Part shown: one piece after another, positions 6,837 to 32,901 of the stretch
How the letters are laid out: each line of letters starts with the position of its first letter
How positions within the stretch are numbered: position 1 is the stretch's first letter
IMG/VR virus record: IMGVR_UViG_3300010392_000035
Coordinates: 1 to 41,834 of that record
Direction: 5' to 3' (one strand)
Length of the DNA stretch: 41,834 nt
DNA from: a virus
The notes under the pieces: generated by a model
The model's database searches: none
Told to the model about the DNA's origin: nothing
The model's input: the letters and a program-made list of their open reading frames with translations, nothing else
Position numbers and translations under genes: made by a program

Positions 6837-6867
6837 TTGTATACATTGACATGTATTAGTATATAAT
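6837..6867 (+). promoter_or_regulatory. Promoter of the HTH regulator with family-2-like palindrome
   Basis: TTGTAT at 6837-6842 and TATAAT at 6862-6867 are separated by 19 bp. The spacer carries ATACAT-TGAC-ATGTAT (6841-6856), a perfect inverted repeat sharing TACATTG with the operators in the downstream promoter copies. This suggests that the regulator encoded at 6896 controls itself. Confidence 0.6.
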
Positions 6868-6895
6868 AACAAAATAACAAACAAGCGGACAACAA

Positions 6896-7318
6896 ATGAC
6901 ATTAACAAAACCACAGAAAGTAACACCGAAAATCATGGCTGCTTTGAATAAATTCAAAATTGCAGAAAGTCTTCCAAGTAATTACGCGCTGGCAAAACAA
7001 TTGAATGTTTCAGCCGCAACTATTTCTACATGGTATAACAAAAGAAATGCCTCTATTTCTGGCCCTACATGGGACAAAATAAAGGAGCGTATTAAGCCAC
7101 ATATTGACAACACAGTCAGAGAAAATGACGCGGCGCTTGGAATTCTCGAAAAATACGAAGGAAGTGAAAGCCAAGAATTTATCATTTTCGAACTGGCAAA
7201 AACAATTGCCAATCTTCGTGAAATTGTGCCACCTCATATAGAAGACCTAAGCGGAAGACGCAGAGACTTAATTATTCTTGCATTCAAAAACATCTCTGAG
7301 GCTATTGAAGTTAACTAA
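6896..7318 (+). CDS. HTH regulator, candidate repressor
   Basis: 140 residues. A Cro/CI-like helix-turn-helix lies at about residues 28-50 (NYALAKQLNVSAATISTWYNKR), followed by a helical C-terminal part with no protease-type dyad, so it is not a LexA-like self-cleaving repressor. It opens the rightward unit, divergent from the early operon, the usual place of a lysogeny regulator. The next sequence (7321) is a family-2 promoter for the integrase, and a related palindrome lies in its own promoter, so it is the best candidate binder of family 2. Confidence 0.75.
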   Translation: MTLTKPQKVTPKIMAALNKFKIAESLPSNYALAKQLNVSAATISTWYNKRNASISGPTWDKIKERIKPHIDNTVRENDAALGILEKYEGSESQEFIIFELAKTIANLREIVPPHIEDLSGRRRDLIILAFKNISEAIEVN

Positions 7319-7320
7319 TA

Positions 7321-7367
7321 TGTCATAAAACTTGCAATGTCTACATTGTAGGTAGTATATTAGAGTA
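7321..7367 (+). promoter_or_regulatory. Family-2 promoter/operator copy A (integrase)
   Basis: Starts TGTCATAAAACTTGC. -35 TTGCAA at 7332-7337, 18-bp spacer, -10 TATATT at 7356-7361, with the palindrome CTACATTGTAG (7341-7351) between them. First of five closely similar copies (others at 30204, 30950, 31774 and 32258). A bound protein here would exclude RNA polymerase. It begins three bases after the regulator stop and drives the integrase genes. Confidence 0.75.
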
Positions 7368-7394
7368 ACACCAAACAATAAAAGGAGTAACAAT

Positions 7395-7706
7395 ATGGGA
7401 AAGCCCAACAAAGGAGGACGCCCGACAAAGGTAGTAGTTGAGAAAATAGGCAAAACTTGGAACATTCGTTATAACCACAACGGCAAAAGAAAAAGATATA
7501 GCTTAAAGACAAAGTGTGAAATTGAAGCCCAATCTCTGGCCCTTCATATTGAAAACCTTTTAATCGATCCAAAAGCCGAAGTTTCAAATAAAGCTTTTAG
7601 CCTGTTTTTTGGGAACCTGCCAAAACAGAAAAGCACTAAGCAGACCTTGGAGAAATTGAAGATTTTGATCCAAAGCAAAAAACCCCTAAAGCCATCCAAA
7701 TCCTAA
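7395..7706 (+). CDS. Integrase N-terminal arm-binding part (split gene)
   Basis: 103 residues. The first 55 (GGRPTKVVVEKIGKTWNIRYNHNGKRKRYSL, then a helix EIEAQSLALHIENLL) match the arm-type DNA-binding domain at the N-terminus of phage tyrosine integrases. AAAGGAG precedes the start. It ends in TAATG, whose ATG begins the next gene in another frame. The downstream frame stays open upstream of that ATG back to 7640 and reads like coding sequence (ADLGEIEDFDPKQKTPKA), so the two genes are probably one integrase broken by a frameshift, possibly at the A6 run 7677-7682. A natural two-chain arrangement is the alternative. Confidence 0.7.
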   Translation: MGKPNKGGRPTKVVVEKIGKTWNIRYNHNGKRKRYSLKTKCEIEAQSLALHIENLLIDPKAEVSNKAFSLFFGNLPKQKSTKQTLEKLKILIQSKKPLKPSKS

Positions 7707-8653
7707 TGAGAGAAATGTCCAGCCTTCGCGCTCAATTAGCAGAAGCCCTGCCATACCAGAAAATGTATAAAGCATTACAGAGCACCCGTGAAGGCAAGCT
7801 GTTACTTCAGGCAGAAACATTGCCAACAGTAAAAGTGGCACTTGAAGAATATTCAACTCTAATTCAACATCTAAAACGGCCCAATGCTTCACTGAATTAT
7901 ATTGTTAAATTCTTTGAAATAAACGGAATGGGCAAAAAGCTTGATGAAACGAAATCAGTAGACATTCAAAAATACTTAGCCGATGACTGCAAAGACAAGT
8001 CAGCCCGCTGGCATCGTCAGCGCCAAATCTTCACACAATTCTATAACAGAATGGAGACAATTTACGCCTTTGAAAATCCAATGATTAATGTCATGGATAA
8101 AAAGCCAGAACATAAAGCTGATATTCATTGGCATAAACTAACAGAAGTAAACAAATTCCTTAAAGGGCTTAAAACCGATTATAGTAAAGCGCTCTTTTCG
8201 ACTCTGTTTTTCTCTGGTGTCACCGCTTCAGAATTTAGAGGCTTAAGAGTTTGTGACTACTTTGAAATTAATGGTCAATGGGTCTTGAGAGTTACCCCAA
8301 ATGAATGCCGCTCAATAAAGCGCGCTAAGAGACGCCGTAACATCAATGTCGGTACAAGACTCAAGAAAGCTCTTGATAAGCACCTGAAGAGCCACAAAGG
8401 TGGTCCAGCGTTATTTCCGCCAGTTACTGGATTTGGTGAATATTGGACCTCAAGTACTTTTACCTCATGGACTAGAAAATACTTTCCTGCTGATATGAAT
8501 TGTTTAAGCACCCGCCGAACCTTTGGAAGTTTATTAATTAGACAAGGTGTTTCAGGGACTGAAGTTGCCGCCACAATGGGAAACAGTCTTTTAATGGTCG
8601 ACCTTCACTACGGCCGAATCAAATCACAAGAAGTAAAAGCACTGGACATTTAA
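7706..8653 (+). CDS. int: Tyrosine recombinase core and catalytic part, atypical active site
   Basis: 315 residues. A core-binding domain (about 40-130) is followed by a catalytic domain (about 140-315). The usual residues are only partly present: GVTASE (171-176) has Thr where family members have the first catalytic Arg (GxRxxE); STRRTF (268-273) keeps the second Arg (270) but has Leu at the HxxR histidine; GNS (292-294) has Asn for the third His; Tyr302 in LHYGR is kept. The fold is clear, the activity doubtful. Translation is coupled to the arm-domain gene by TAATG. Confidence 0.8.
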   Translation: MREMSSLRAQLAEALPYQKMYKALQSTREGKLLLQAETLPTVKVALEEYSTLIQHLKRPNASLNYIVKFFEINGMGKKLDETKSVDIQKYLADDCKDKSARWHRQRQIFTQFYNRMETIYAFENPMINVMDKKPEHKADIHWHKLTEVNKFLKGLKTDYSKALFSTLFFSGVTASEFRGLRVCDYFEINGQWVLRVTPNECRSIKRAKRRRNINVGTRLKKALDKHLKSHKGGPALFPPVTGFGEYWTSSTFTSWTRKYFPADMNCLSTRRTFGSLLIRQGVSGTEVAATMGNSLLMVDLHYGRIKSQEVKALDI

Positions 8654-8655
8654 AC

Positions 8656-8841
8656 TTGAATGAATCGACAATAAAAATGATTGAAATGATGGCCCGAACT
8701 CACGAAGTTCGGGCCGATTTATTAGAAGAGGTTATAATAAATATGGGACTTTACGAACTTTTTAAAGCTGCTGAAATTTATAATACACCTGCGGATTTTG
8801 ACGCCTATGTTCAAAAGTGTGTTGAGCTTCTGCCATGCTAA
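8656..8841 (+). CDS. Hypothetical small protein
   Basis: About 61 residues from a TTG start at 8656, or 54 from ATG 8677; not recognised. Predicted mostly helical. Its stop overlaps the next gene's ATG by 7 bases. The codons for MARTHEVRA lie in a 10-bp perfect hairpin (8691-8715), so this stretch may serve as RNA structure after the integrase as well as coding. Ribosome site weak. Confidence 0.45.
   Translation: MNESTIKMIEMMARTHEVRADLLEEVIINMGLYELFKAAEIYNTPADFDAYVQKCVELLPC
8691..8715. repeat. Strong GC-rich hairpin behind integrase
   Basis: GGCCCGAACT and AGTTCGGGCC form a perfect 10-bp stem with loop CACGA, 38 bases after the integrase stop. No T-run follows (GATTTATTAG), so termination is doubtful; it could protect the integrase RNA 3' end or be a protein site. 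Confidence 0.6.
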
Positions 8842-9497
8842 AACTACTACTACCAGACAAAGACGGCTTTCCCATTTTTCGCTGCATCTTAATGTCAGAA
8901 ATCGCCTTTAATCACACATCTTTGATAAACTATATTTTTGACCATGATTTGGAACAGGTTAGAAAGGCTTTACTTGATAATGGTTGGTGGCATTTGGGGG
9001 CGGTTATTACTGGCCTAGGTATTTGTTTTCTATACGTTGGATTGTTGGCTCTTTTACGTCAATGGGGATTATTTACAGAAAAAGGTTATGAAAATTTGAA
9101 GAAAGCCTCTATACATCAGGAGAATATAGATGCAACAGAGCACATTGAAACATTAAGGGTCAGAGTAAAATCACTAGATGATGAAATATCCAGCAAAGCG
9201 CATAATCGTGATGAACTTAAACAAGAATTAAAAGGACTTAACGCTGAAAAAGAGAGCATAGAACGTCAAATATTAGAATTGAAAAACAAGGCTTTACCAT
9301 ATATCAGTCAAGGTTTACCAGCTCTTACAAAAAGTCAATTGGACAAACTTTTGTCGTCTAATATTCTTACAGAAAGTCAATTGAACTCTCTTAAAGCGGC
9401 TGATAAAAGTAGAGACCTTCCTGAATTAGAGGAGGCTGTCAAATTAGAGTACCAAAGAGGTCGAGAAAAGGCCTATTACAATCCTAAGGAAATATAA
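8835..9497 (+). CDS. Membrane-anchored coiled-coil protein
   Basis: About 220 residues; ATG 8892 would give a 201-residue version. One transmembrane segment (about residues 53-76, HLGAVITGLGICFLYVGLLALL) is followed by a long charged coiled coil (about 95-155) and a Gln/Ser/Leu-rich helical tail. No homolog recognised. The position after the integrase in the lysogeny-side unit suggests a gene expressed in the lysogen, for example acting on superinfecting phage or on the envelope, but that is speculation. A terminator follows at 9535. Confidence 0.6.
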   Translation: MLKLLLPDKDGFPIFRCILMSEIAFNHTSLINYIFDHDLEQVRKALLDNGWWHLGAVITGLGICFLYVGLLALLRQWGLFTEKGYENLKKASIHQENIDATEHIETLRVRVKSLDDEISSKAHNRDELKQELKGLNAEKESIERQILELKNKALPYISQGLPALTKSQLDKLLSSNILTESQLNSLKAADKSRDLPELEEAVKLEYQRGREKAYYNPKEI

Positions 9498-9534
9498 TTA
9501 GACGTAGGTTCAAAAACTAGTTAGTAATACCTTG

Positions 9535-9563
9535 AAGCTCCTGTTATGCAGGGGCTTTTTTTT
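9535..9563 (+). terminator. Rightward intrinsic terminator
   Basis: AAGCTCCTG/CAGGGGCTT forms a 9-bp stem with one G-U pair and loop TTATG, followed by eight T. It ends the regulator-integrase-membrane protein unit. Confidence 0.85.
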
Positions 9564-9568
9564 ATGCC

Positions 9569-9597
9569 TTGAAAATTGCGCAAACACATGATAAAAT
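9569..9597 (+). promoter_or_regulatory. Promoter for the membrane-protein gene at 9607
   Basis: TTGAAA at 9569-9574, 17-bp spacer, TAAAAT at 9592-9597. The spacer holds the short palindrome TTGCGCAA. It lies directly after the terminator, so the next genes are a separate unit. Confidence 0.55.
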
Positions 9598-9606
9598 AAT
9601 CAAACA

Positions 9607-9984
9607 ATGAGGGCAATAACAATTAACAAGCAATATCCAGAACATCTTGAAAGCCTGTTTAAAGACCAGCGCCAAAAGATAGAAAATTTTCGTCAACTGT
9701 CATCAACACATATTCGACTTTCTAAAGCAGAAAGAAATTCAGGAATAATAACACTTATACTTTTTATCCTGTCTTATAGTATTTGTTTTGCGTTGTTTGA
9801 CGGTAATGATTTTACAATAGTTTCTATGATACTTAATGTAACCATATGGTATGATATAATTCGCCAATTTAGGGCATTTAAAGGACGCTCTAGGGCTCTT
9901 AAGTCACTGGGTCATGAAGTTAACCGCCAGACTGAAATTATCGTCTTACAGCTAGCCCTATTAAAGCTGGGCGTAAAAAAATGA
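9607..9984 (+). CDS. Small membrane protein, two predicted segments
   Basis: 125 residues. A helical N-terminus rich in Gln and Arg is followed by two hydrophobic segments (about residues 47-65, GIITLILFILSYSICFALF, and 70-85, FTIVSMILNVTIWYDII) and a basic C-terminal helix. No homolog recognised. It has its own promoter between the terminator at 9535 and the gene. A holin-like or signalling role cannot be told from the sequence; the position on the lysogeny side makes a lysogen-expressed function likely. Confidence 0.6.
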   Translation: MRAITINKQYPEHLESLFKDQRQKIENFRQLSSTHIRLSKAERNSGIITLILFILSYSICFALFDGNDFTIVSMILNVTIWYDIIRQFRAFKGRSRALKSLGHEVNRQTEIIVLQLALLKLGVKK

Positions 9985-10064
9985 ATATTCCGATAATAGA
10001 CCTTAACGGGCATCAATTAACCAACGGGCAAAGTTTGACTTATGAACTTAAAAGATGTGGATGA
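9981..10064 (+). CDS. Possible 27-residue peptide
   Basis: ATG at 9981 overlaps the upstream stop (ATGA) and reads MNIPIIDLNGHQLTNGQ... to TGA at 10062-10064. The stop overlaps the start region of the next small gene. Coupling supports translation, but the length is too small for confidence. Confidence 0.3.
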   Translation: MNIPIIDLNGHQLTNGQSLTYELKRCG

Positions 10065-10218
10065 ATGTTTAGACGTTTGCTCTGAAGATTTAATAATAGA
10101 GCTGGATGAATTAAACGAAGAAATTGACCAAATGCATGAGGAATTATCAATACTCAAAAAATCACGTTTAAGACTAAAAACAAGAATACGACATGCGGAA
10201 AAAAAAGAAGCCTTTTAA
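10042..10218 (+). CDS. Small acidic coiled-coil protein
   Basis: 58 residues from ATG 10042 to TAA 10216-10218. The sequence (LDELNEEIDQMHEELSILKKSRLRLKTRIR) is a clear amphipathic coiled coil with an acidic first half and a basic second half. It lies downstream of the two-segment membrane protein, in the same direction. The ribosome site is weak, so translation may depend on the upstream peptide. Confidence 0.5.
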   Translation: MNLKDVDECLDVCSEDLIIELDELNEEIDQMHEELSILKKSRLRLKTRIRHAEKKEAF

Positions 10219-10329
10219 GGCCCAAAAAGTATGACAAAACCCCAATAAACTCTGACACTTTCCCCTATGGAGCCCCGATTTGTAATCGGCAATATCTAGA
10301 TTTTCGTAATCAGTCCTTAAAACACGAAA

Positions 10330-10356
10330 CCCCCTAAGTCTCAATGACTTAGAGGG
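10330..10356 (-). terminator. Terminator of the leftward small-gene operon
   Basis: On the minus strand CCCTCTAAGTC pairs with GACTTAGGGGG (11 bp, one G-U pair, loop ATTGA), followed by TTTCGTGTTTT. It lies downstream of the leftward genes 11575-10423, and opposes the rightward unit ending at 10218. Confidence 0.65.
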
Positions 10357-10422
10357 CATCTATAAATTCTGTTTTTCTGTTTTATTTTTGATAGGTGTCA
10401 AAAATCATATGACAAAACCCAC

Positions 10423-10581
10423 CTATTTAATGACAAAACCCTTATTGATAAAATGCTCTTCTGTTATCGTCTCTGTTTTATGTCTAGTCACTATACGTCT
10501 AATGTTATCAAGCATTTTATCAACTTCAGTTTTCTTTTTGCGCCTTGTGTTTGTCCTTACTCTTTCTATTACTGCCTCCAT
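10423..10581 (-). CDS. Hypothetical 52-residue basic protein
   Basis: Starts ATG 10581 with AGGG about 8 bases ahead and reads MEAVIERVRTNTRRKKKTEV..., ending FVIK. Strongly basic in the first third, then helical; not recognised. It is the last gene of the leftward operon that starts with the HTH protein at 11575, and the terminator at 10330-10356 follows. An opposite-strand hydrophobic reading frame here is a shadow. Confidence 0.5.
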   Translation of the reverse strand: MEAVIERVRTNTRRKKKTEVDKMLDNIRRIVTRHKTETITEEHFINKGFVIK

Positions 10582-10612
10582 ATAATTGCCCTCATTTTGA
10601 TTTACAGTAATT

Positions 10613-10756
10613 CTAAGTAGGGGTCATTTTATGTCCCTCACTTTTTTCTTCTTTGGTGATTGTTGTTTTTACTCTTTCCAAATCCTGTTCACGCTTTGTA
10701 AATTTAGGTTTTTCTAATGCCCATTTTAAGCCAAGTTCATACAAGTCTTTATTCAA
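10613..10756 (-). CDS. Hypothetical 47-residue protein, TTG start
   Basis: Starts at TTG 10756, which overlaps the stop of the upstream gene (TTGA), and reads MNKDLYELGLKWALEKPKFT.... Lys/Glu-rich and helical, not recognised. The overlap and shared direction support coupled translation; the unusual start codon lowers confidence. Confidence 0.4.
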   Translation of the reverse strand: MNKDLYELGLKWALEKPKFTKREQDLERVKTTITKEEKSEGHKMTPT

Positions 10757-10980
10757 TTGTTTTCTCGATTAAGTTCATAGAGTCCGATCTCTCTCTCTAA
10801 AGATTTCATCCTCTCTTCTATTACCTTGATCTCTTCTGGTGTAGGTCTTACGGCTAGTGGTGAAAGATTGTTTTTCTCTAAAGCATCATTTAAAGTTTTG
10901 AACTTATCCCTAATAGCATACAGACTGCCTAAAAGCTGCGCTGTCTGGTTGGCGAAATCCGCCTCATTAACATTATTCAT
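10753..10980 (-). CDS. Hypothetical helical protein
   Basis: 75 residues, predicted all-helical (ADFANQTAQLLGSLYAIRDKF..., then PTPEEIKVIEERMKSLEREIGLYEL). Not recognised. ATGA overlap with the upstream 90-residue gene. Lacking motifs, it can only be described as a helical, probably oligomeric, small phage protein. Confidence 0.55.
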   Translation of the reverse strand: MNNVNEADFANQTAQLLGSLYAIRDKFKTLNDALEKNNLSPLAVRPTPEEIKVIEERMKSLEREIGLYELNRENN

Positions 10981-11249
10981 GCATTATCCATAATATCGTT
11001 TAAAGATTTCAGTGCGCCATTAATATCTTTGAGATTGTTCATAAACCAAGCGGCTCTTTTCAGAGAAAGAATCTTTTCCTGTGAGTAACTCCCGTCTATT
11101 GTATAAAGCGCCGCCTTAAGTCCACTTTCTTGCTTACTCATAGTAATTTCATCAAACCTCATAAGCTGCTCTGCAAGGTTCATTAAATCGAACCTGTCAA
11201 CATCAAGCTTTTCGGATTTCATGTTTGGCTCTGGATCGGCATGTCGCAT
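10977..11249 (-). CDS. Hypothetical protein, paralog of the gene at 38642
   Basis: 90 residues. The core (DLMNLAEQLMRFDEITMSK..., then KILSLKRAAWFMNNLKDINGALKSLNDIM) aligns by eye with the protein at 38642-38935 (QLMHLGQQIIRLDEILTKE..., then KIEAIKAAIMFLNDVEEIATCIGILNDAL). Both are small, helical and last or near-last in their operons. Function unknown. The start ATG 11249 overlaps the stop of the HTH gene. Confidence 0.6.
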   Translation of the reverse strand: MRHADPEPNMKSEKLDVDRFDLMNLAEQLMRFDEITMSKQESGLKAALYTIDGSYSQEKILSLKRAAWFMNNLKDINGALKSLNDIMDNA

Positions 11250-11575
11250 TAAAAGGTCTCCATCATCTTATTAAGGAAATCTAATGTTTCATCCCGATTT
11301 TTTAGGCGGTCAATTTGCATGCAAAGTGATTTGATTTCTGAGGAGAAATATTCGCTTGGAGTTGACTTATATTTATTTAAATCAAACTCTAGTTCATTGG
11401 CCCATTTGAGTATTTTAGGCTTCATTTTTTTAGAAGGAATTCGCCTACCTTTCATAATGCATGAAATATACTGTTGAGTCACTTCAAATTTAGCCGCTAT
11501 AAGTAATTGTGATAAGCCCTCACTTTCTTGAAGATCCGACATGAGCCGTTGCCAATTAAGGCTTTCTATATACAT
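11249..11575 (-). CDS. XRE-like HTH protein
   Basis: 108 residues. The N-terminal half has a helix-turn-helix (LSQLLIAAKFEVTQQYISCIMKGRRIPSKKMKPKILKWA) typical of XRE/Cro regulators; the C-terminal half is a charged helix. The start at 11575 overlaps the stop of a 17-residue leader peptide in another frame, so translation is probably coupled to the leader. It heads a leftward operon of small proteins preceded by palindromes at 11715-11741. It is one candidate binder of the family-1 operator. Confidence 0.7.
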   Translation of the reverse strand: MYIESLNWQRLMSDLQESEGLSQLLIAAKFEVTQQYISCIMKGRRIPSKKMKPKILKWANELEFDLNKYKSTPSEYFSSEIKSLCMQIDRLKNRDETLDFLNKMMETF

Positions 11576-11619
11576 TCTTTAACCCAAAGAACAGAGAATA
11601 CGGTTAATATGTATTTCAT
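11566..11619 (-). CDS. 17-residue hydrophobic leader peptide
   Basis: A strong ribosome site (AGGGGGG, six bases away) precedes ATG 11619. The frame reads MKYILTVFSVLWVKECI and ends at TAG 11568-11566, overlapping the HTH gene start. The HTH gene has no good ribosome site of its own, so the leader probably supplies it with ribosomes. Confidence 0.5.
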   Translation of the reverse strand: MKYILTVFSVLWVKECI

Positions 11620-11714
11620 TTTTGTCCCCCCTGTTTAATTTTAAAAATTGCGTCTTTATAAACTGCCCTATATTGACATATTTTGATATATGAAGGCGTT
11701 TCTAAGTATATGAT

Positions 11715-11741
11715 AGTACGCGGCGTACTGAATTAGTACAG
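11715..11741. promoter_or_regulatory. Overlapping palindromes upstream of the HTH operon
   Basis: AGTACG-CGG-CGTACT (11715-11729) is a perfect inverted repeat and runs into CTGAATTAGTACAG (11728-11741), a family-1 operator with one arm mismatch. They lie about 100 bp upstream of the leader peptide. Between here and 11918 no gene is seen; the DNA is AT-rich with an A7-GGTA-T7 element near 11840-11857. Confidence 0.6.
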
Positions 11742-11918
11742 CATATTTATTACACAATTTTACTGAGCCAAAAAACTAAATACTATAAACAGCTTGTCTA
11801 ATGTGTTATGATGCCAGTTAAGAAGGTTTTTAAGCATAAAAAAAGGTATTTTTTTCCTAAATAGTATAGTATTTACAACTTAACTTAACTCTGTCATAAG
11901 GATTTTAAAAACCTTTAA

Positions 11919-12131
11919 TCACTGAAAAAAATAGCTGTAGAGATTTATAGCTGTGTCCCAAAATGGGGGTTTTGCAGTAAGGCTTAAGCCGTCCTCGTTT
12001 ATTTCTCCTTTATATGTCACACCTGTTAAAGGGCTATTAACAGAGGTTGTGCAACCAAGGAAAAATAAAACAAGGGCAGAGAGGACGGCCAGCCGTATTC
12101 TATTTATCTTGTTTTGTATCGAGCTTTTCAT
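11919..12131 (-). CDS. Lipoprotein, probable o-spanin (Rz1-like)
   Basis: 70 residues. A basic start (MKSSIQNKINRIRL) and a hydrophobic stretch lead to a lipobox LFFLGC with Cys at about residue 27; the mature part is about 44 residues. The gene overlaps the end of the coiled-coil membrane gene by 32 bases in another frame, the classic Rz/Rz1 arrangement. It should be lipidated in the outer membrane and join the i-spanin across the periplasm for the last lysis step. It is the last gene of the structural/lysis block. Confidence 0.7.
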   Translation of the reverse strand: MKSSIQNKINRIRLAVLSALVLFFLGCTTSVNSPLTGVTYKGEINEDGLSLTAKPPFWDTAINLYSYFFQ

Positions 12132-12462
12132 AAATTCGGTTAAAGTTGTCGGTATTTTTGCTGTCTTTTTCTTTTATCAAATCCTTAATTTCGTCTAATC
12201 CTTTGCCAATACCTTTAAGGCTGTTTGCTGTTATGGTTTGGTCTGTGCTGATCTTGGAAACCTTTTCTTTTAAAGGTTCAATTGTATCTTTTTTCAGCCC
12301 TTCAAAATCCATATCTATTTTTGTGGCTCGCTTGTCAACTCTGTCGTCAATTTCCTGTATCATATCCGCGCGCTCCGATTTCTGTTTAAATCTCATAAAT
12401 GCCGTCATTAAGGCTACCAAAATTACTGTACCTATTGAAACCCAACTTCCCTCACTCAACAT
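12100..12462 (-). CDS. Probable i-spanin (Rz-like)
   Basis: 120 residues. One N-terminal transmembrane segment (about residues 6-23, WVSIGTVILVALMTAF) is followed by a long periplasmic coiled coil (about 35-115) ending EKLDTKQDK, the layout of inner-membrane spanin subunits. Overlap with the lipoprotein gene supports the pairing. GGGGG precedes the start. A holin with a single segment is a weaker alternative because the cytoplasmic N-terminus is very short and the coiled coil long. Confidence 0.65.
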   Translation of the reverse strand: MLSEGSWVSIGTVILVALMTAFMRFKQKSERADMIQEIDDRVDKRATKIDMDFEGLKKDTIEPLKEKVSKISTDQTITANSLKGIGKGLDEIKDLIKEKDSKNTDNFNRIYEKLDTKQDK

Positions 12463-14178: not shown

Positions 14179-14220
14179 TTTATTTTCTCCTTAAGCCCCT
14201 AACTAAGAGCAATTCTTTTT

Positions 14221-15357: not shown

Positions 15358-15381
15358 GATTTCCCTTTTCATTCCTTTAAA

Positions 15382-22252: not shown

Positions 22253-22258
22253 AAGTCA

Positions 22259-22825: not shown

Positions 22826-22840
22826 TACTGCCCGCCAACT

Positions 22841-23266: not shown

Positions 23267-23287
23267 TTTTTTGCCCCTTAATTTGGA

Positions 23288-24577: not shown

Positions 24578-24590
24578 GGTTTAACTCCAT

Positions 24591-24636: not shown

Positions 24637-24707
24637 AAATTTTTAAGTGATATGTAATAGAGGAATTATTCGAGGACAAGCCGCAATTTAACAGCTGTCG
24701 TTTCTAC

Positions 24708-24750
24708 AGTATAAGCGCCCTTTTTATTGATTGCAACTGAATTAGTTCAG
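24708..24750 (-). promoter_or_regulatory. Capsid promoter with family-1 operator
   Basis: Minus strand: -35 TTGCAA (24736-24731), 17-bp spacer, -10 TATACT (24713-24708). The operator CTGAATTAGTTCAG (24737-24750) abuts the -35 on its upstream side, a position more typical of an activator than of a repressor. It gives the capsid and downstream tail genes a start point inside the structural block. Confidence 0.7.
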
Positions 24751-24755
24751 AACTA

Positions 24756-25619: not shown

Positions 25620-25629
25620 TTTTTAACTC

Positions 25630-26511: not shown

Positions 26512-26522
26512 TTTTTGCTCCT

Positions 26523-28277
26523 TTAATCGCTGATTCTTACTAAGGTGTATTTATACTCATAAATTGTGACCGTCCCGCCCGTGGCTACTTCTGCCACATA
26601 TGCCAAACTTATGGTGTGTGCTGCGGCTGTCAGTACTAGGTTATTAACCCTATAAGAAAATGGGTTATTTGAAGTGCCCGCTGGAAACTCAACGGCAATA
26701 TTTGAAATAGCACCTGTCAAAATGCTGGAGCCGTCAACCTTTGGAATAAAAAGGGCGCTTTTTGGCGAACCCGTAATATTTGCAGTCCATAAAACTTCAA
26801 GTCTGTAAGTGCCTGCAAGTAAAGTAGGCGTTGTAAAAGTGGGGCTCGTTCCGTCTCCCGAATATTCAACAAAACTGGGGTTTGCATTTGTTGTGGATCT
26901 TGTCGTCTCGTCAACGTCATTAAATTCAACGGGGAATTTATATGTACCGTCATTGGCTAAAAATTTGTCGCCTTGACTACTGTTATCCAGAACAACCGCA
27001 TTTATGCCCTGTTGAGTACCCCAGCTTGTTAAAAAAGTAGAGTTAAAAGAAGGCGCTATATTTTGATAGAAAAATTGACCAGGAGCATTAGTTGGGAAAA
27101 TTAAAGGGCCGCCCGTTGATAGCTGTGTGCTTGTAATAACAATAGCCGAAGCAAAGGTGTCAAAATTAATACACGCAGCGCCACCACTCATTTCGATTGC
27201 GCCGCCATGATAAGTAATGAGACTTGAACCGCTAAACCTAGCTTGACCTTTTAGAAAAGTATTCTTAAAAAATCCACTAGCCGTGCCAGTCATTTGAAGT
27301 ACAGTGGCGTTTGCACCTCCATTACCATTTCGCCTAAATTCACCATTATAAATATCAAGGCTCATTGAATCTGTAATGACAGCTGGCCCCGAATTATCCA
27401 GCATTGTAATTCTTACGTGTACGCGTGAAGCAAATGTGCTGTCGCCATGAGTATTAGTTAATAAAAGAGGCGTTACACCACCTGAGCTATTTATAGTTGT
27501 TGCGTTTGCCCATAAGATTGTCGATTGATCCCCAGTAACAGAAACTTGCCCGTTAATTTCCATTCCTTGTAAAGCAAAAACGCTTTCAACAGTGGGCGAA
27601 TAGGTCAAGTTTCCGAATAGCTGTGTACAGCTAGAGTTTCCAGTAAAACCGATAAGAGAAATACAGTCGTTAACTATTAAAACATTTTCAGTATATACCC
27701 CAGCTAAAACAATAATGTTTGCTCTTATTCCTGCCAATTCTGCGGCATCTACAGCCGCCTGAATTGAAGTAAAAGTGGAATTAGTAGCAGAAGATCCCAC
27801 GACATAAGGATAAGGCGAAGCTCCGCCGCCGCCACCGCCGCCGCCGCCGCCAATAACTGAGCCCGACAAACCGCGTAAACCGCGCTGCCCTTGAGGGCCT
27901 TGAACATGGCCTGAATTTTCCTGTGTGCCGTCTGTGTAATCTATTATTAAATCACCTTTTCTATTTACAAAGGTGTTAACGATCCCGCGCCCGTCTTCCC
28001 CGTCATCGCCGTCTTCCCCTTTTTCGCCCTTGTCGCCCTTGTCGCCCTTTGGCCCTTGTTTACCGATTTGACCAGCTTCGCCCTGCATACCTGCCAAACC
28101 CCGCTTTCCTTCAAGGCCAATTTCACCCCGTTCGCCAGCTTCGCCAGTTTCGCCAGCTTCACCATCTCTGCCCAAAAACATATCAAGAAAAGTTTCTTTT
28201 TTCGCTTCATACTTTTCGGCTTGTTTTATTTGACGCAGTTCACTTTCAGAGAGTAGTTTATTTTTTGAATACTTCAT
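26523..28277 (-). CDS. Collagen-like fibre protein in the head module
   Basis: About 584 residues; ATG 28277 overlaps the portal stop (ATGA). A charged helical N-terminus (1-35) is followed by about 20 Gly-X-Y triplets (near 37-100, GETGEAGERGEIG style), a short non-collagen insert, more triplets, a poly-Gly hinge (near 143-152, GGC codons at 27825-27850), a beta-helix-like middle and a C-terminal beta sandwich (about 440-584) such as trimer caps of fibres. It would form a trimeric fibre. Its place between portal and protease suggests it decorates the head and not the tail. Confidence 0.65.
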   Translation of the reverse strand: MKYSKNKLLSESELRQIKQAEKYEAKKETFLDMFLGRDGEAGETGEAGERGEIGLEGKRGLAGMQGEAGQIGKQGPKGDKGDKGEKGEDGDDGEDGRGIVNTFVNRKGDLIIDYTDGTQENSGHVQGPQGQRGLRGLSGSVIGGGGGGGGGGASPYPYVVGSSATNSTFTSIQAAVDAAELAGIRANIIVLAGVYTENVLIVNDCISLIGFTGNSSCTQLFGNLTYSPTVESVFALQGMEINGQVSVTGDQSTILWANATTINSSGGVTPLLLTNTHGDSTFASRVHVRITMLDNSGPAVITDSMSLDIYNGEFRRNGNGGANATVLQMTGTASGFFKNTFLKGQARFSGSSLITYHGGAIEMSGGAACINFDTFASAIVITSTQLSTGGPLIFPTNAPGQFFYQNIAPSFNSTFLTSWGTQQGINAVVLDNSSQGDKFLANDGTYKFPVEFNDVDETTRSTTNANPSFVEYSGDGTSPTFTTPTLLAGTYRLEVLWTANITGSPKSALFIPKVDGSSILTGAISNIAVEFPAGTSNNPFSYRVNNLVLTAAAHTISLAYVAEVATGGTVTIYEYKYTLVRISD

Positions 28278-30109
28278 GAAATTTTCTTCCACCCCATAAT
28301 TGTAAGTTGATATTGGCCGTCGTCACCATTGCGAATTTCGCCAATTGTTGGCGCGTCTTCAATCCCTGTAATATCTGACATAAGGACTTCAATTATTTTA
28401 TTTGTTTGTCCTTGGTAAGTTGGCTCTTTGTCGCCTGATGAAAATTCTTTTGACATCAATAAAAATTCATTATCTTCAAGATGTTCTTTTTTCAAAATGT
28501 TACATAAATAAGTGGAGTGAATCTTTAGACATTCGGCCAGCTCGTTTTCAAACTTACAATAAAAGCCTTGCATTATTTCAAGCTGTCTTTCTGGAGTCTT
28601 TTTGCTGGCGTCCTGATGTGTGTAAAATTCTTTCTTGGTAAGGCGGTCAATGCTGTTCGACATACTTGGTAGATAAGCGCTTATAACGGCTGTCTGTGCC
28701 ACTTGGCTAGGGTCATCCTCGTTAGTACCTTCTGGCGCTGGCGCTTCACCTTGTGGGGGCTCCTCTGTGCTTTCTGGGGCATTTTGTTCCCCTGCTTGAG
28801 GCTCCGCAGGTTCTTCAAGGGCCTTTTCTTTGATTTCGTTGTCTAATTCTGCTGACGTTTGGCCTTCTAAAAGTGGTGTAAGATTTAAAGGAATATAACG
28901 AACGTCACCACCTTCGTACTCTGGTAGACCTTCAGCCAATGCAATTTGATTTCCTGACATTGAACCAGTCGCAAACAATTCCTTAAACAATTGGCCACGG
29001 GCTTTTGAATCGCCACGCAATAAAGCTTTTTCATCAAAGTCTATAACTGTGTTGTCTGTTCTATGAAATTTGAATTTTAATTGAACTTCAAGGCGTCTAA
29101 TCCAAGGGGTCAAAGTGTCAGTTGAATAATTAATGTTTTGCTGTTCCACATTATTAAATGTGCTTTTGGTCATGTCCATTAATTTGTGTGGTGGAATTCT
29201 GAAAATGCGCGCAATCTCTTCAACCTGAAATTTTCGAGTTTCTAAAAGTTCCGCGTCAGTACTGGACATTTGCAAACGATTGAATTTAAATCCTCTGTCT
29301 AAGATACCCATTTTATGAGCTTTAGAAGGGCCGCTGAATTTACTTTCCCAGTCTTCGCGAATGTGTTCTTTTTGTTCTTTATTAAGTGCTTTGTCTGTTT
29401 CTAGTACAGCGCCGATACTCAAATTATTTCCAAAAAATGCCCCTGTGAAATCCTGAGCCGCAATACTAATTCCCAGACTTTCAGCGAAAATTTCCCCGAC
29501 AGAATAACCGACAACCCCGTTGCCCATACCTTTTAAATGTAAAATCTCATTTTCCATTAAAGATATTGTTCTATTTTTCTGCTTTCCTCGTTGGTCGACT
29601 TCGGTGTTTGTCGTTATCGTATAAACTAAAATGCCGCGTTCATCCCGTGAAATTGTTACCCGTGTCGGATGAATCAAAATTAACTGAATATCACCCAAAC
29701 TATTTTTTATGATTTCCGCGTATCCATTGCCAAAAGTCAACATCCATTGTACAAGCGTTTGAATGCCCGTCATTGAATCCGTTTCGTCATTGAATCCAAA
29801 ACGCAAGGTTTCTAAAAGTGGAGTATTTAAAACAGGCTTCTTTTTGCCTTCGCTGTCGATCTTGAAAAAGTTAATTGGTAGTTTTGCAATGTCTTCAGAT
29901 ATGGCGCGAACTGCACACCAATAAGCCGCCAATTGGAAAGCGCTTTCTGAAGTTACGGTAATATTTGCTTTTGTGGGGTTTATGAATCTTTGATATAAGG
30001 TCTGGAGAAATCCGCCATTCCATAAAAGGCCGTTGCTGCTGGAATCATAAAAACCATCGCCTGATTGCATGGGTTTTTTCTTGCGCTTAAAGATCTCAAA
30101 AAAGTTCAT
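28274..30109 (-). CDS. HK97-type portal protein
   Basis: About 611 residues from ATG 30109. Family signatures: FQLAAYWCAVRAISEDIAKLP, FGNGYAEII, HLKGMGNGVVGYSVGE, IARIFRIPPHKLMDMTKSTFNNVEQQN. It forms the dodecameric DNA channel and packaging dock. Residues from about 426 to 465 are a Pro/Glu-rich linker, and the last 140 residues form an extra domain that most HK97 portals (about 400-450 residues) lack. The ribosome site is weak. It heads the leftward structural block. Confidence 0.9.
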   Translation of the reverse strand: MNFFEIFKRKKKPMQSGDGFYDSSSNGLLWNGGFLQTLYQRFINPTKANITVTSESAFQLAAYWCAVRAISEDIAKLPINFFKIDSEGKKKPVLNTPLLETLRFGFNDETDSMTGIQTLVQWMLTFGNGYAEIIKNSLGDIQLILIHPTRVTISRDERGILVYTITTNTEVDQRGKQKNRTISLMENEILHLKGMGNGVVGYSVGEIFAESLGISIAAQDFTGAFFGNNLSIGAVLETDKALNKEQKEHIREDWESKFSGPSKAHKMGILDRGFKFNRLQMSSTDAELLETRKFQVEEIARIFRIPPHKLMDMTKSTFNNVEQQNINYSTDTLTPWIRRLEVQLKFKFHRTDNTVIDFDEKALLRGDSKARGQLFKELFATGSMSGNQIALAEGLPEYEGGDVRYIPLNLTPLLEGQTSAELDNEIKEKALEEPAEPQAGEQNAPESTEEPPQGEAPAPEGTNEDDPSQVAQTAVISAYLPSMSNSIDRLTKKEFYTHQDASKKTPERQLEIMQGFYCKFENELAECLKIHSTYLCNILKKEHLEDNEFLLMSKEFSSGDKEPTYQGQTNKIIEVLMSDITGIEDAPTIGEIRNGDDGQYQLTIMGWKKIS

Positions 30110-30124
30110 AGACAACCCATTATA

Positions 30125-30184
30125 AAATTATTTGCTTACTTATATATACACATAAAAACAAACTTTTACAGAACTAATTCAGAA
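30125..30184 (-). promoter_or_regulatory. Probable portal promoter with family-1 operator
   Basis: CAGAACTAATTCAG at 30169-30182 (minus strand CTGAATTAGTTCTG) is a family-1 site with one mismatched position. Downstream on the minus strand comes AT-rich DNA with TATATATAAG near 30137-30146 as a -10 candidate; no strong -35 is seen, so a protein bound next to it could activate. The layout resembles the capsid promoter. Confidence 0.5.
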
Positions 30185-30203
30185 TGATTCATAAATACTT
30201 CAG

Positions 30204-30250
30204 TGTCATAAAACTTGCAATACCTACATTGTAGGTACTATATTAGAGTA
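30204..30250 (+). promoter_or_regulatory. Family-2 promoter/operator copy B
   Basis: TGTCATAAAAC, then -35 TTGCAA (30215-30220), 18-bp spacer, -10 TATATT (30239-30244). The spacer contains the perfect 15-bp palindrome ACCTACATTGTAGGT (30222-30236). It drives the 26-residue peptide and the RadC-like gene. Confidence 0.75.
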
Positions 30251-30275
30251 GAGACAAACAATAAAAGGACAAAAA

Positions 30276-30356
30276 ATGATCTTCTCACTCTTAACAATCG
30301 TAGCCCTCGCAACTTACAAATTCATACTTTCAGTTCCAGTTTTTCCACCGCGATAA
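30276..30356 (+). CDS. 26-residue membrane peptide
   Basis: Preceded by AAAAGGAC at good spacing. Reads MIFSLLTIVALATYKFIL, then SVPVFPPR. One hydrophobic segment. It resembles the 29-residue peptide at 31024 (ALATYKFIL against ALTYRQIL), which occupies the same place in the next unit. Function unknown; a leader or a small membrane effector is possible. Confidence 0.5.
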   Translation: MIFSLLTIVALATYKFILSVPVFPPR

Positions 30357-30405
30357 TAACAATTCAATAACAATGAAAACAACAATAATAACAACAAGGA
30401 AAATT

Positions 30406-30870
30406 ATGACTAACATGTACAAATACTCAGTAAAGAGAGAATTCGCGGGAAAGGTCGGAGACGAATCAGCAAGCTACCAAATAAGTAAACCTGAAACAGT
30501 GGCCCAATATTTAAAGCTAATGGGACTCCACGAAGACGAACAAGAAAATTTTGTAGTCCTTTTTCTGGATACCAGAAACAAGGTTAAAGGTTTTGACAAA
30601 GTAACAAGGGGGCTGGTTGACAGGAGCCACGTACACCCAAGGGAAGTTTTCAGAGCCGCCATTATCGCGGGAGCTTCAAAAGTAATACTCTGCCATAATC
30701 ACCCCTCTGGGGACTGTTCGCCATCCAAACAAGACTTGACATCTACAAAGAACCTCTGCGAAGCTGGCGAAATCATCGGCATCAAAGTTTTAGATCATGT
30801 GATAGTAGGCGAAAAGCTGGGAGAATTCAACTGGCTTTCAATGAGAAATTCTGGTCAATTCCCCTCATAA
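30406..30870 (+). CDS. RadC-like JAB/MPN-domain protein
   Basis: About 154 residues from ATG 30406 (AAGGA ahead). The metal-binding motif HNHPSGD with the preceding Glu (PREVFRAAI) and the following Asp and Ser (PSKQDLTSTKNL) matches the C-terminal domain of RadC, a JAB/MPN metalloprotease-like fold. The N-terminal helix-hairpin-helix part of full RadC is absent. RadC-like proteins are frequent on mobile elements; their biochemical role is unsettled. It forms a one-promoter, one-terminator unit with the upstream peptide. Confidence 0.85.
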   Translation: MTNMYKYSVKREFAGKVGDESASYQISKPETVAQYLKLMGLHEDEQENFVVLFLDTRNKVKGFDKVTRGLVDRSHVHPREVFRAAIIAGASKVILCHNHPSGDCSPSKQDLTSTKNLCEAGEIIGIKVLDHVIVGEKLGEFNWLSMRNSGQFPS

Positions 30871-30888
30871 TCAACACCTTACGACATT

Positions 30889-30925
30889 TACCTAAAGTGA
30901 GGCGGTTCACTTTAGGTACTCTTTT
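30889..30925 (+). terminator. Terminator after the RadC-like gene
   Basis: TACCTAAAGTGA/TCACTTTAGGTA forms a perfect 12-bp stem with loop GGCGGT, followed by CTCTTTT. Confidence 0.8.
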
Positions 30926-30949
30926 GCTTGACTTTCAAAAATAGTGGTG

Positions 30950-30990
30950 TGTCATAAAACTTGTAATACCTACATTGTAGGTATTATATT
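30950..30990 (+). promoter_or_regulatory. Family-2 promoter/operator copy C
   Basis: -35 TTGTAA (30961-30966), 18-bp spacer with ACCTACATTGTAGGT (30968-30982), -10 TATATT (30985-30990), preceded by TGTCATAAAAC. It drives the 29-residue peptide and the two small genes after it. Confidence 0.75.
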
Positions 30991-31023
30991 AAGGTATAGA
31001 AAGAAACAATAAAAGGACAAAAA

Positions 31024-31113
31024 ATGAGCTACTTAACTTTCACAATCTTAATAAGCATTGCCGCCCTGACCTACAGACAAATTCTAAAAGTTAAAATTTA
31101 CAACTTTAAATAA
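31024..31113 (+). CDS. 29-residue membrane peptide
   Basis: AAAAGGAC precedes the start. Reads MSYLTFTILISIAALTY, then RQILKVKIYNFK: one hydrophobic segment and a basic tail. Similar to the peptide at 30276, both being first in their family-2 units. Function unknown. Confidence 0.5.
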   Translation: MSYLTFTILISIAALTYRQILKVKIYNFK

Positions 31114-31128
31114 AACAAGGAAAAGAAA

Positions 31129-31311
31129 ATGGAAAAACTACTCTACGCAGCACACAGAAAAACAGAAATAAAATTGTACCTAACATCAATGGCCGCTTAC
31201 GCCTCTAACCCTTCCACAACTCCAGTAAATATGCTGACTCTGGAAGAGGCCAAAGAAGCCGCCAGAGACGAAAGCAAAAAGCTAACTTTCAGACAAAAGG
31301 AGATTAAATAA
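31129..31311 (+). CDS. Hypothetical small protein
   Basis: 60 residues with AAGGAAA ahead of the start. Helical, with a basic start (MEKLLYAAHRKTEIKLYL) and a charged end (EEAKEAARDESKKLTFRQKEIK). Not recognised. It lies between the membrane peptide and the 98-residue gene in unit C. Confidence 0.55.
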   Translation: MEKLLYAAHRKTEIKLYLTSMAAYASNPSTTPVNMLTLEEAKEAARDESKKLTFRQKEIK

Positions 31312-31312
31312 T

Positions 31313-31609
31313 ATGAATAAGCAACTGACAATAAAACAGGCAATAAAAGATTTTTCTTATGAGTCTCCAATGGCTCTGGCCCTGTACCATATGAATGTAA
31401 TTTACTGGGATCTTTTAAAGTACTTTCCAGAGAAAGACGTAAAGAAGATAACAAGCCTTAAAACAAGGTTCATTGCAAGAGGTGCGGGAGCCTTCGCCTA
31501 CTTAAAGGGATTCATTGACAGAAGATACCCCGAAACAGCTCACTTTTTCAGACTTAAGCAAGAAACCATTTGCGGCCTGACAGTAATTGAAATCACACAT
31601 AAATCTTAG
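31313..31609 (+). CDS. Hypothetical protein
   Basis: 98 residues, ATG two bases after the upstream stop and AAGGAG ahead. Mixed helical, with several aromatic residues (YHMNVIYWDLLKYFPEKD) and a basic centre (KTRFIARGAGAFAYLKGFIDRRYPE). No known domain recognised. Last gene of unit C; a hairpin follows at once. Confidence 0.55.
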   Translation: MNKQLTIKQAIKDFSYESPMALALYHMNVIYWDLLKYFPEKDVKKITSLKTRFIARGAGAFAYLKGFIDRRYPETAHFFRLKQETICGLTVIEITHKS

Positions 31610-31632
31610 AGCTTTAGAAAGCCCTATCTAAG
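31605..31632 (+). terminator. Hairpin at the end of unit C
   Basis: CTTAGA/TCTAAG (6 bp) encloses GCTTT/AAAGC (5 bp, 2-base loop), with a 4-base bulge. It overlaps the stop of the 98-residue gene. A mixed CTATTTT run follows, so termination is plausible but weaker than at the other units. Confidence 0.45.
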
Positions 31633-31635
31633 CGC

Positions 31636-31746
31636 GCTATTTTCCCCCAACTTCATAGCACTCTCTGGCCCTCACTGTTTACCTTGTAGGGCCGTCGCTG
31701 TGCCCTGTGCTTCATTTTATTGCCCCGCTTGCGGCTATTTTCCCCC
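31636..31746. repeat. Pyrimidine-rich spacer with a 13-bp direct repeat
   Basis: GCTATTTTCCCCC occurs at 31636-31648 and again at 31734-31746, bracketing a C/T-rich stretch without a credible gene. Its composition is unlike its A-rich neighbours; it may be a remnant of an inserted segment between units C and D. Confidence 0.5.
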
Positions 31747-31773
31747 TACAGTCCAGCCCTAATTCAATACGTG

Positions 31774-31814
31774 TGTCATAAAACTTGTAATACCTACATT
31801 GTAGGTGTTATATT
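31774..31814 (+). promoter_or_regulatory. Family-2 promoter/operator copy D
   Basis: -35 TTGTAA (31785-31790), 18-bp spacer with ACCTACATTGTAGGT (31792-31806), -10 TATATT (31809-31814), preceded by TGTCATAAAAC. It drives the 95-residue acidic gene. Confidence 0.75.
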
Positions 31815-31848
31815 AGTATTAGAAAGAAACCAACCAAAAGGACAAAAA

Positions 31849-32136
31849 ATGACTAAACTAGACCTAATCAAAATGAGCATTAAAGAAATCTTTTTCTTCT
31901 GGAGTGAATCACAAGTAATGGTAGACGCTTTTGAAGAAAGCCAGCCAGCCGATTTAGACCTTTTCATTGAAGCCTGCACTCAAGGAGCCATTGAAGCCGA
32001 CGGATGCGACTGCTACCTGAAAACTAAATTTAGAGTCACATTTCAGAACGGTATCGAGAAAGTTTTAAGAATAGATCTTGAGCAAGACGAAAGTTGCCCC
32101 TTAGAACTCATAAGTCACTACATACCAAACAGCTAG
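31849..32136 (+). CDS. Hypothetical acidic protein
   Basis: 95 residues from ATG 31849 with AAAAGGAC ahead; an upstream in-frame extension would run through the promoter and is rejected. Acidic, with a helical N-terminus (KMSIKEIFFFWSESQ) and a CDCY motif near residue 58. No family recognised. Sole gene of unit D, with its own promoter and terminator. Confidence 0.65.
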   Translation: MTKLDLIKMSIKEIFFFWSESQVMVDAFEESQPADLDLFIEACTQGAIEADGCDCYLKTKFRVTFQNGIEKVLRIDLEQDESCPLELISHYIPNS

Positions 32137-32142
32137 AAAAAA

Positions 32143-32177
32143 CACCTGTAATAGATTCTATTACAGGTGATTCTTTT
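32143..32177 (+). terminator. Terminator of unit D
   Basis: CACCTGTAATAG/CTATTACAGGTG forms a perfect 12-bp stem with loop ATT, followed by ATTCTTTT. Confidence 0.8.
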
Positions 32178-32257
32178 AAGTCCCTTTAAATCAAGCAGTT
32201 GCATTCATTCCTAAGCTAAGGGGTGTTACTTTAGGAACCGCACTCATTCAGAACGTG

Positions 32258-32297
32258 TGTCATAAAACTTGCATTACCTACATTGTAGGCATATATT
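32258..32297 (+). promoter_or_regulatory. Family-2 promoter/operator copy E
   Basis: -35 TTGCAT (32269-32274), 17-bp spacer, -10 TATATT (32292-32297), with ACCTACATTGTAGG (32276-32289) between, one base short of the full palindrome. A partial TTCCTAAG...CTTTAGGAA hairpin lies just upstream near 32207. Confidence 0.7.
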
Positions 32298-32337
32298 ATA
32301 GTATAGAAAGAAACAGAAACTCAAAAGGAAAACCAAG

Positions 32338-32469
32338 ATGAAAAACCTAAAAAAACTTCTAAACCTCGCTCAAAACATACTAACAGTAATCACAGATTCA
32401 GAATGGAAAAAAGAAGTCGGAAACCAAAACTTCGAGTTCGGCCGCAAAACAGAAATGGAGACAAAATAA
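32338..32469 (+). CDS. Hypothetical 43-residue protein
   Basis: First gene of unit E, AAAAGGA ahead. Basic, helical (MKNLKKLLNLAQNILTVI) with a charged tail. Not recognised. The next ATG is two bases after its stop, so translation is coupled. Confidence 0.5.
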   Translation: MKNLKKLLNLAQNILTVITDSEWKKEVGNQNFEFGRKTEMETK

Positions 32470-32470
32470 T

Positions 32471-32626
32471 ATGAACATCTTCGACCTAAACAAACTAATC
32501 AGCGCCATCGAAAATGGCGACGGAACCATGAAAAACATGCTCCCGTTTTACCGCAACATGAAAAAGGATCTTATGAAAAAGCTTTCAACTGGGATTCAAG
32601 AAATAATCAACCAAGGGAAAAAATAA
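32471..32626 (+). CDS. Hypothetical 51-residue protein
   Basis: Starts two bases after the upstream stop and ends two bases before the next ATG. Helical and basic (MNIFDLNKLISAIENGDGT..., ending EIINQGKK). Not recognised; its reality is supported by the tight spacing on both sides. Confidence 0.5.
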   Translation: MNIFDLNKLISAIENGDGTMKNMLPFYRNMKKDLMKKLSTGIQEIINQGKK

Positions 32627-32627
32627 T

Positions 32628-32876
32628 ATGAAAAAATTTACCGAAATCACATTCACAGTTCCAAGCTCTTTTTTAAGCCTCTTGCTGGGGGGCGATTATA
32701 ATTGGTCTCTTAATGATCAAGATATTGAAGATACCAACAGTTTTATAAATCACGTAAAAGAGACATACGGACACGCTCTTTTTAGCGGTTCCAAGCCCGC
32801 TGGAATGAAACCCAGAAACGACATTAACAGCATGTTTGCCGACTGCTCAACAATAACATTATTAATAACTGATTGA
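32628..32876 (+). CDS. Hypothetical protein
   Basis: 82 residues, AAGGGA ahead of the start. Mixed alpha/beta with several Ser, Asn and Asp and a hydrophobic end (STITLLITD). No family recognised. Its stop lies inside the -35 of the next promoter, so it closes the first part of unit E. Confidence 0.55.
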   Translation: MKKFTEITFTVPSSFLSLLLGGDYNWSLNDQDIEDTNSFINHVKETYGHALFSGSKPAGMKPRNDINSMFADCSTITLLITD

Positions 32877-32901
32877 AAAGCTCTACAAAGTAGGCTATCA
32901 T
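32873..32901 (+). promoter_or_regulatory. Promoter of the secreted-protein pair, degenerate family-2 site
   Basis: TTGAAA (32873-32878), 17-bp spacer, TATCAT (32896-32901). The spacer carries CTACAAAGTAG (32883-32893), the family-2 palindrome with a changed centre. The TGTCATAAAAC upstream part is absent. Confidence 0.6.

Follow-up and report, generated by a model that had tools for sequence, protein, structure and literature searches.

As described in excerpts of the respective sources, Aca repressors act at inverted repeats inside the core promoter, and the aca gene may follow the acr genes in an operon (PMC9410906). The repressor Reg of the Bacillus plasmid p576 controls several establishment promoters, represses them once it has built up in the recipient (PMC8708921), and so allows a burst of their operons on entry. 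In SIRV2, a conserved promoter region precedes many small early genes and was used to predict anti-defence genes (PMC11065993), and MqsA binds AACCT-N3-AGGTT (PMC4894380). Here, a repeated promoter cassette with an internal palindrome, termed family 2, was analyzed in a single virus record of IMG/VR (IMGVR_UViG_3300010392_000035; 41,834 bases), referred to at its full length as the window. The cassette stands in front of the integrase and of four units of small cargo genes between terminase and portal. It is read, with a probability of roughly 0.5, as a repressible promoter on these separate units and the integrase, probably regulated by a 66-residue helix-turn-helix (HTH) protein encoded at 33906-34106.

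Five near-identical copies of 41-42 base pairs (bp) start at 7321, 30204, 30950, 31774, and 32258, all on the + strand, with the consensus TGTCATAAAACTTGYAAT-ACCTACATTGTAGGT-NN-TATATTA. The 14-mer TGTCATAAAACTTG is exact in all five on that strand, and the 15-mer ACCTACATTGTAGGT carries no mismatch at 30222, 30968, and 31792, one at 32276, and two at 7339. With up to three mismatches on both strands, ACCTACATTGTAGGT gave 12 matches against 0.79 expected; for TGTCATAAAACTTG, the same number of mismatches gave 9 matches against 8.84 expected, so the weight of the 14-mer rests on its exact copies. In a matrix scan of the window, the five copies scored 61.6-66.2, values that are high by construction because the matrix was derived from these copies and two copies of a relative, and the next best hit (-1.0) was the 7321 copy on the opposite strand. 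The five copies listed by a sequence-only reading of this DNA are real and lie far above chance.

In all five copies the palindrome is located between a -35 hexamer and TATATT, as that reading had stated. The -35 motif TTGNAA which it had given was found at four copies (TTGYAA), whereas the 32258 copy has TTGCAT. The spacer measures 18 bp in these four and 17 bp at 32258. In every case, the -10 hexamer ends 31-40 nucleotides (nt) ahead of an ATG that has an AAGGA-type ribosome site in front of it. The integrase copy (7321-7362) stands at a distance of 33 nt from the ATG at 7395 and has the left arm GTCTA instead of ACCTA with an intact right arm TAGGT. The remaining copies precede unit A (30204-30245), unit B (30950-30991, where TAATACCTACATTGTAGGTATTA is palindromic over 23 bp), unit C (31774-31815), and unit D (32258-32298, with the spacer one base shorter). 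The operator arms are imperfect at 7321, at 32258, and in both copies of the relative, but an inverted repeat lies inside the core promoter in 5/5 window copies and 2/2 copies of the relative. Over 74 nt that take in the 5' leader and ribosome site, the 7321 copy shows 86% likeness to the 30204 copy (39/42 in the core), and the 30204 and 30950 copies agree at 40/42 positions. From its sequence, the cassette resembles a sigma-70-type promoter (TTGYAA, spacer 17-18, TATATT) with a putative dimer operator, ACCTA-N5-TAGGT, in the spacer. A role of the palindrome as an RNA hairpin was rejected, as it lies upstream of any transcription start that follows TATATT, and a role of the repeats as integrase arm sites was rejected because every copy is found 31-40 nt before a start codon in a single orientation.

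Two degenerate members had also been proposed, at 6837 and 32873, and both fell within the background of the matrix scan. Among the positions of both strands, 6837 ranked 345 in the core scan and 184 in the full scan, and it carries a different inverted repeat. The stretch 6837-6875 lies upstream of the HTH gene at 6896 and contains this inverted repeat, with ATACATTGACATGTAT followed by TATTAGTATATAATA; it is not conserved in the relative and is a possible operator of the 6896 gene itself. Position 32873 ranked 37 and 248 in the core and full scans, respectively. The promoter-like TTGAAA-17-TATCAT around CTCTACAAAGTAGGC at this place (32873-32901, + strand, inside unit D) is not above chance and could be a decayed copy. 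A palindrome match at 170-184 was rejected as a sixth site, being within chance (0.72 expected at up to one mismatch). The strong copies occur only before one cargo island and the integrase and none precedes replication or virion genes, which does not agree with the phage-wide switch envisaged earlier. A shared regulon of integrase and accessory units, also envisaged, is the natural reading of one cassette repeated before both.

Four of the five copies (30204, 30950, 31774, and 32258) head units A-D, which lie on the + strand, antisense to the virion genes. Unit A (30276-30870) encodes a 26-residue hydrophobic leader open reading frame (ORF; 30276-30356) and a RadC-like JAB protein (30406-30870, ORF open from the ATG at 30373; 136 bits), and is followed by a terminator-like stem-loop at 30889-30918. 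Unit B (31024-31609) comprises a 29-residue leader ORF (31024-31113), short and hydrophobic like that of unit A, and ORFs of 60 and 98 residues without assigned function. The single 95-residue protein of unit C (31849-32136) has a weak LPD25 match (22.7 bits against a Pfam cut-off of 27) and a terminator-like stem-loop behind it (32143-32169). Unit D (32338-34106), probably one transcript, consists of closely packed ORFs of 43, 51, 82, 144, 178, and 66 residues with the HTH_3 gene last, and a terminator-like stem-loop at 34132-34155 closes the island; these stem-loops are all on the + strand. Within unit D, two adjacent related genes (32932-33904) begin with signal-like segments that are almost the same (84% over 96 nt). 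An anti-defence role of the cargo is plausible. The PADLOC scan of the cargo yielded weak JAB and HTH matches only. No Acr or Aca was named in the Pfam, PHROGs, and PADLOC cargo scans or in NCBIfam scans of three cargo proteins, all run with models that are not Aca-specific, and ArdC gave no match among the cargo proteins scanned, i.e., those other than the two leader ORFs.

Compared with the known systems, the locus shares with acr-aca operons the inverted repeat within the promoter, the small genes, and an HTH gene that is last in its unit (33906 in unit D) before a terminator-like hairpin and is probably co-transcribed. It differs in that several separate units share the promoter, the integrase included, and in that no anti-CRISPR is recognizable; the family-2 system is not assigned to acr-aca. 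As far as the excerpts describe them, the Bacillus plasmids p576 and pLS20 likewise have several operons, each behind a similar promoter and regulatory region, and a variable gene content, and one plasmid-borne repressor controls the p576 operons (PMC8708921). In contrast, the window is a phage with terminase, portal, and capsid, and Reg of p576 is a ribbon-helix-helix protein with operators flanking the promoter, whereas here the operator lies in the spacer and the candidate repressor is of the HTH_3 type. The SIRV2 promoters are archaeal, with TATA/BRE elements, unlike the bacterial sigma-70-type promoter with its in-spacer palindrome. Operators and stoperators of Cluster A mycobacteriophages are similar in being one site repeated over the genome, with a specificity that differs between relatives (PMC6550527); they lie mostly outside promoters and serve immunity, while the family-2 sites are all in promoters of the cargo units and integrase. 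With regard to MqsA, the arms here are ACCT-N7-AGGT, and the 33906 protein is only 66 residues long, matches below the cut-offs, and has no recognized toxin partner. The combination of many units, an in-spacer operator, an included integrase, and relatives whose palindromes at that position differ seems to be new, and no description of the element was found among the open-licence papers listed by the literature searches.

A search of related phages for the element, which the sequence-only reading had suggested, identified two copies in IMGVR_UViG_3300009136_000025 (30,724 bp; G001). This relative is 77% identical to the window in the portal, 73% in the 6896 homologue, and 64% in the integrase. 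One copy stands before its RadC gene (86% identical) and the other after RadC at the contig end. With the 5-nt centre left aside, the 30204 copy agrees with the RadC copy of G001 at 32/37 positions and with the other copy at 36/37, while the centre itself is CATTG in the 30204 copy versus CAGAA or TCCTG in the copies of G001. Since arms and promoter are kept and the centre is changed, the operator is better read as ACCTA-N5-TAGGT. Over the full core, the 30204 copy agrees with its positional counterpart in G001 at 34/42 positions and with the other copy at 38/42. The second copy of G001 may correspond to 30950 or to 31774, with a score of 25 against a shuffle 95% value of 23 for the latter. 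Between RadC and this copy, short tandem repeats (CTGACTCTCTC, AAAGAG) occupy positions 48-309 of G001 contig region L056.

At the integrase locus of G001 (L001), the HTH gene ends at 7122 and the integrase starts at 7128, 5 bp apart, and no family-2 site was found in L001 at up to three mismatches. In the whole record, the same threshold recovered the contig-end copy only, the RadC copy having more mismatches. Membership of the integrase is thus lineage-specific, and a copy made in the lineage of the window would fit the sequences. Against this, some other copies resemble the 30204 copy equally or more closely, and a single relative does not prove the direction of change; the copies may also have been homogenized among themselves.

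More distant relatives were compared at the gap between the terminase large subunit (TerL) and the portal, which was examined at 9 of 79 loci, with TerL labeled at these nine by position and by reading of the ORF and with L067 and L072 left unjudged; L059 and L060 came from a separate search. Antisense genes were found in this gap in L059 (TerL 70% identical), L060 (TerL 62%), and L065 (portal 50%, one gene). In L062, L063, L064, L070, and L071, no antisense cargo gene separates the portal from the TerL-like ORF before it, and in L069 the gap of about 150 nt holds one doubtful 47-residue antisense ORF that overlaps the portal start and was not counted. The promoter of the L059 cargo holds the palindrome TACCCAAGTTGGGTA and that of the L065 cargo TACGCTAACTGCGTA; as in the window, the centre of each falls on the ninth base following the -35 hexamer. 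A spacer palindrome complete in its five outer pairs was rare, occurring at 7 of 719 promoter-like sites in eight sequences, namely three family-2 copies of the window, the sites of L059 and L065, and two others, one of which is window position 6846 before the 6896 gene. These sites are suggestive of operators in L059 and L065 that differ in sequence from the family-2 one but share its location in the spacer. The last cargo gene of L059 (3013-3531, - strand) encodes an HNH endonuclease (PF13392, 43.1 bits) and may represent a homing element at the cargo site.

As repressor, the protein encoded at 33906-34106 (+ strand), the last gene of the operon behind the 32258 copy, was given about even odds, by judgement. 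It matches HTH_3 (PF01381) with 43.6 bits against a cut-off of 23 and resembles the DNA-binding half of MqsA, with 29.3 bits against the MqsA HTH domain (cut-off 30) and 42.1 bits for the MqsA-family model of NCBIfam (cut-off 61.8). The HTH_3 gene in the L059 cargo is 46% identical to it over 50 residues, and an Aca3 chain in PDB matches this L059 protein weakly (E 0.055). A repressor dimer on ACCTA-N5-TAGGT in the spacer would exclude RNA polymerase. In a newly infected cell without repressor, cargo units and integrase would fire at once, and as the regulator accumulates, all copies would be turned off and held off in the lysogen. Being last in the operon behind the 32258 copy, 33906 would close a negative feedback loop. 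The sequences show the copies, their geometry, and their conservation in G001, together with a similar geometry around other palindromes in two relatives; that the promoters are active and repressed, which protein is the repressor, when the genes fire, and whether the cargo acts against defence are inferred. A wider version appears possible yet doubtful: anti-defence cargo and integrase would form an establishment regulon on one cassette, firing only on entry and silenced by the cargo-encoded HTH protein, with the cassette copied to capture genes including the integrase and with relatives having evolved their own operator at the same spacer position. If true, the cassette would serve as a bait for finding new anti-defence genes, and integration in a bacterial phage would come under the same entry-timed control. 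About ten small genes of no assigned function are thereby named as test candidates, and the palindromes would form a natural series at one fixed promoter position.

Several observations weigh against the repressible cassette under 33906. No family-2 copy stands directly in front of 33906, no HTH protein was recognized among the four L060 cargo ORFs, and in L065, which has a palindrome, the cargo is a single gene that is not of the HTH type, on a contig of only 4988 bp. G001 ends inside the cargo and so is silent on a 33906 homologue. The promoter hexamers agree with the consensus at 9/12 positions in the four copies with 18-bp spacers, a level common in this AT-rich DNA. The spacer-position test was designed after the L059 and L065 palindromes had been seen, and only their exact position in the promoter is unusual. 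In shuffles of the whole regions, the 7-bp arms of L059 were reached in 20% and 5-bp arms as in L065 in 93%, neither being significant, and the L065 region has a longer inverted repeat elsewhere. The 7321 and 32258 copies and both G001 copies are outside the seven full-match sites. The antisense cargo of L060 lacks a complete spacer palindrome, and one promoter-like site upstream of it, at 3624, has four of the five outer pairs, as do 48 of the 719 sites. Terminator-like hits numbered 14 against 3.8 expected, several of them being the promoter palindromes themselves, and unit B has no terminator-like hairpin on its own strand.

A second palindrome of the window, CTGAANTAGTTCNGAA (family 1), gave 25 matches at up to three mismatches against 4.8 expected. 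It is exact at 6626-6641, 24737-24752, and 41617-41632 and has two or three mismatches at 30169-30184, 11728-11743, and 34333-34348. Family-1 sites lie near the starts of several virion, regulatory, and ParB-like genes, and such sites are conserved in G001 upstream of the 6896 homologue. Family 2 had been called distinct from family 1, which holds for the sequences themselves but less clearly for their arrangement: CTARTTCAG, a family-1 half-site at up to one mismatch, occurs within 45 nt upstream of 5/7 family-2 copies (not 7321 or 30950), compared with 1.7% of Markov 45-mers and 2.9% of 45-mers from the window. These five half-sites are not independent: the ones at 30204 and at RadC of G001 belong to family-1 sites which face the portal gene as well, and an ACGTG context is common to the remaining three. 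From this arrangement, the two families may be wired together. In L060, a 44-nt repeat (3617-3660 and 11224-11267, 75% alike) with the palindrome ATTTTCAATTGATATTGAAAAT lies upstream of the portal, where the window has a family-1 site, and is a possible family-1 counterpart of different sequence.

The sequence-only reading had placed the regulon under the 140-residue HTH protein at 6896-7318 (+ strand), which is directly upstream of and adjoins the integrase copy. This assignment is judged rather unlikely, and 33906 is rated above it as candidate repressor. The protein has a poor AlphaFold model (mean predicted local distance difference test score of 47). It matches a PHROGs HTH family (E 3.6e-6), and G001 has a homologue of 73% identity in which the HTH is almost unaltered, which would allow co-conservation with the operator arms kept there. 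However, its best Pfam HTH match of 20.4 bits is below the cut-off of 22, and 6837 is not a family-2 site. In G001, moreover, neither the 6896 homologue nor the integrase has a family-2 site while RadC has one, which removes the positional argument for 6896. The remaining share of the judgement on the repressor falls to other proteins. The operator could be the target of a host regulator or of a further phage HTH protein, for example the 11249 product or the protein that binds family 1, so that the cargo would follow the host state or the immunity repressor. The family-1 half-sites and the further HTH genes at 11249-11575 and 6399-6581 are in favor of this version, but the palindrome differs among related phages, for which a rapidly changing specificity carried by the phage would be a better explanation than a single host factor, and this version too is considered rather unlikely.

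Regulators of the MerR type act between -35 and -10, at promoters that need spacers of 19-20 bp. An activator site of this kind, by which the units would be switched on, would agree with the place of the palindrome and with a 60-residue HTH_17 protein with weak MerR matches at 6399-6581. The spacers, however, are 17-18 bp and vary between copies, and the protein looks excisionase-type, judged from its size and HTH_17 domain, which makes this explanation very improbable. Equally little credence is given to constitutive promoters spread by copying or recombination, with the palindrome as an accident of one ancestral promoter. Copies are evidently gained and lost, given that the likeness of the 7321 and 30204 copies extends into the leader and that G001 lacks the integrase copy; yet in G001 the arms are kept with a changed centre, and the palindromes that L059 and L065 have in this place are different ones.

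Exact pattern scans of IMG/VR returned no record, or G001 only, for most of the element, very near records possibly being excluded from the search. A looser pattern (TTG plus palindrome core) gave 55 matches in 54 stretches, five of them with a -10-like hexamer at the right distance; none had more than 6/11 bases of the upstream box, and none was family-2-like. The genome collection contained no pattern match, and the 531 stretches that matched short portal patterns included no portal relative. In the phage collection, no integrase match was found at E 1e-5, portal matches had 31-36% identity in the best 20 of 1525, and RadC had distant phage matches only (45 records, all below 60% identity).

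The window encodes a tailed temperate phage with head protease, major capsid, terminase, tail-fibre-like protein, exonuclease, helicase loader, and integrase, and its portal is located at 28274-30115 (- strand). The integrase (7395-8653, + strand) is split into two overlapping ORFs (7395-7706 and 7706-8653) versus a single 421-residue ORF in L001; an error in the sequence, a genuine mutation, and programmed frameshifting are possible causes. The terminase large subunit, within 39136-40783, also consists of two ORFs (39542-40783 and 39136-39531) and is a single ORF in L059 and L060. Two conserved genes split in one record suggest assembly indels or decay. The Rfam scan returned nothing except a tRNA; a tRNA-Met (CAT) is found at 38944-39016 (- strand), between the + strand block and the terminase. 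A ParB-like protein is encoded at 34439-35221, and its 49% identical homologue in L060 (9524-10270) is located on the far side of the portal.

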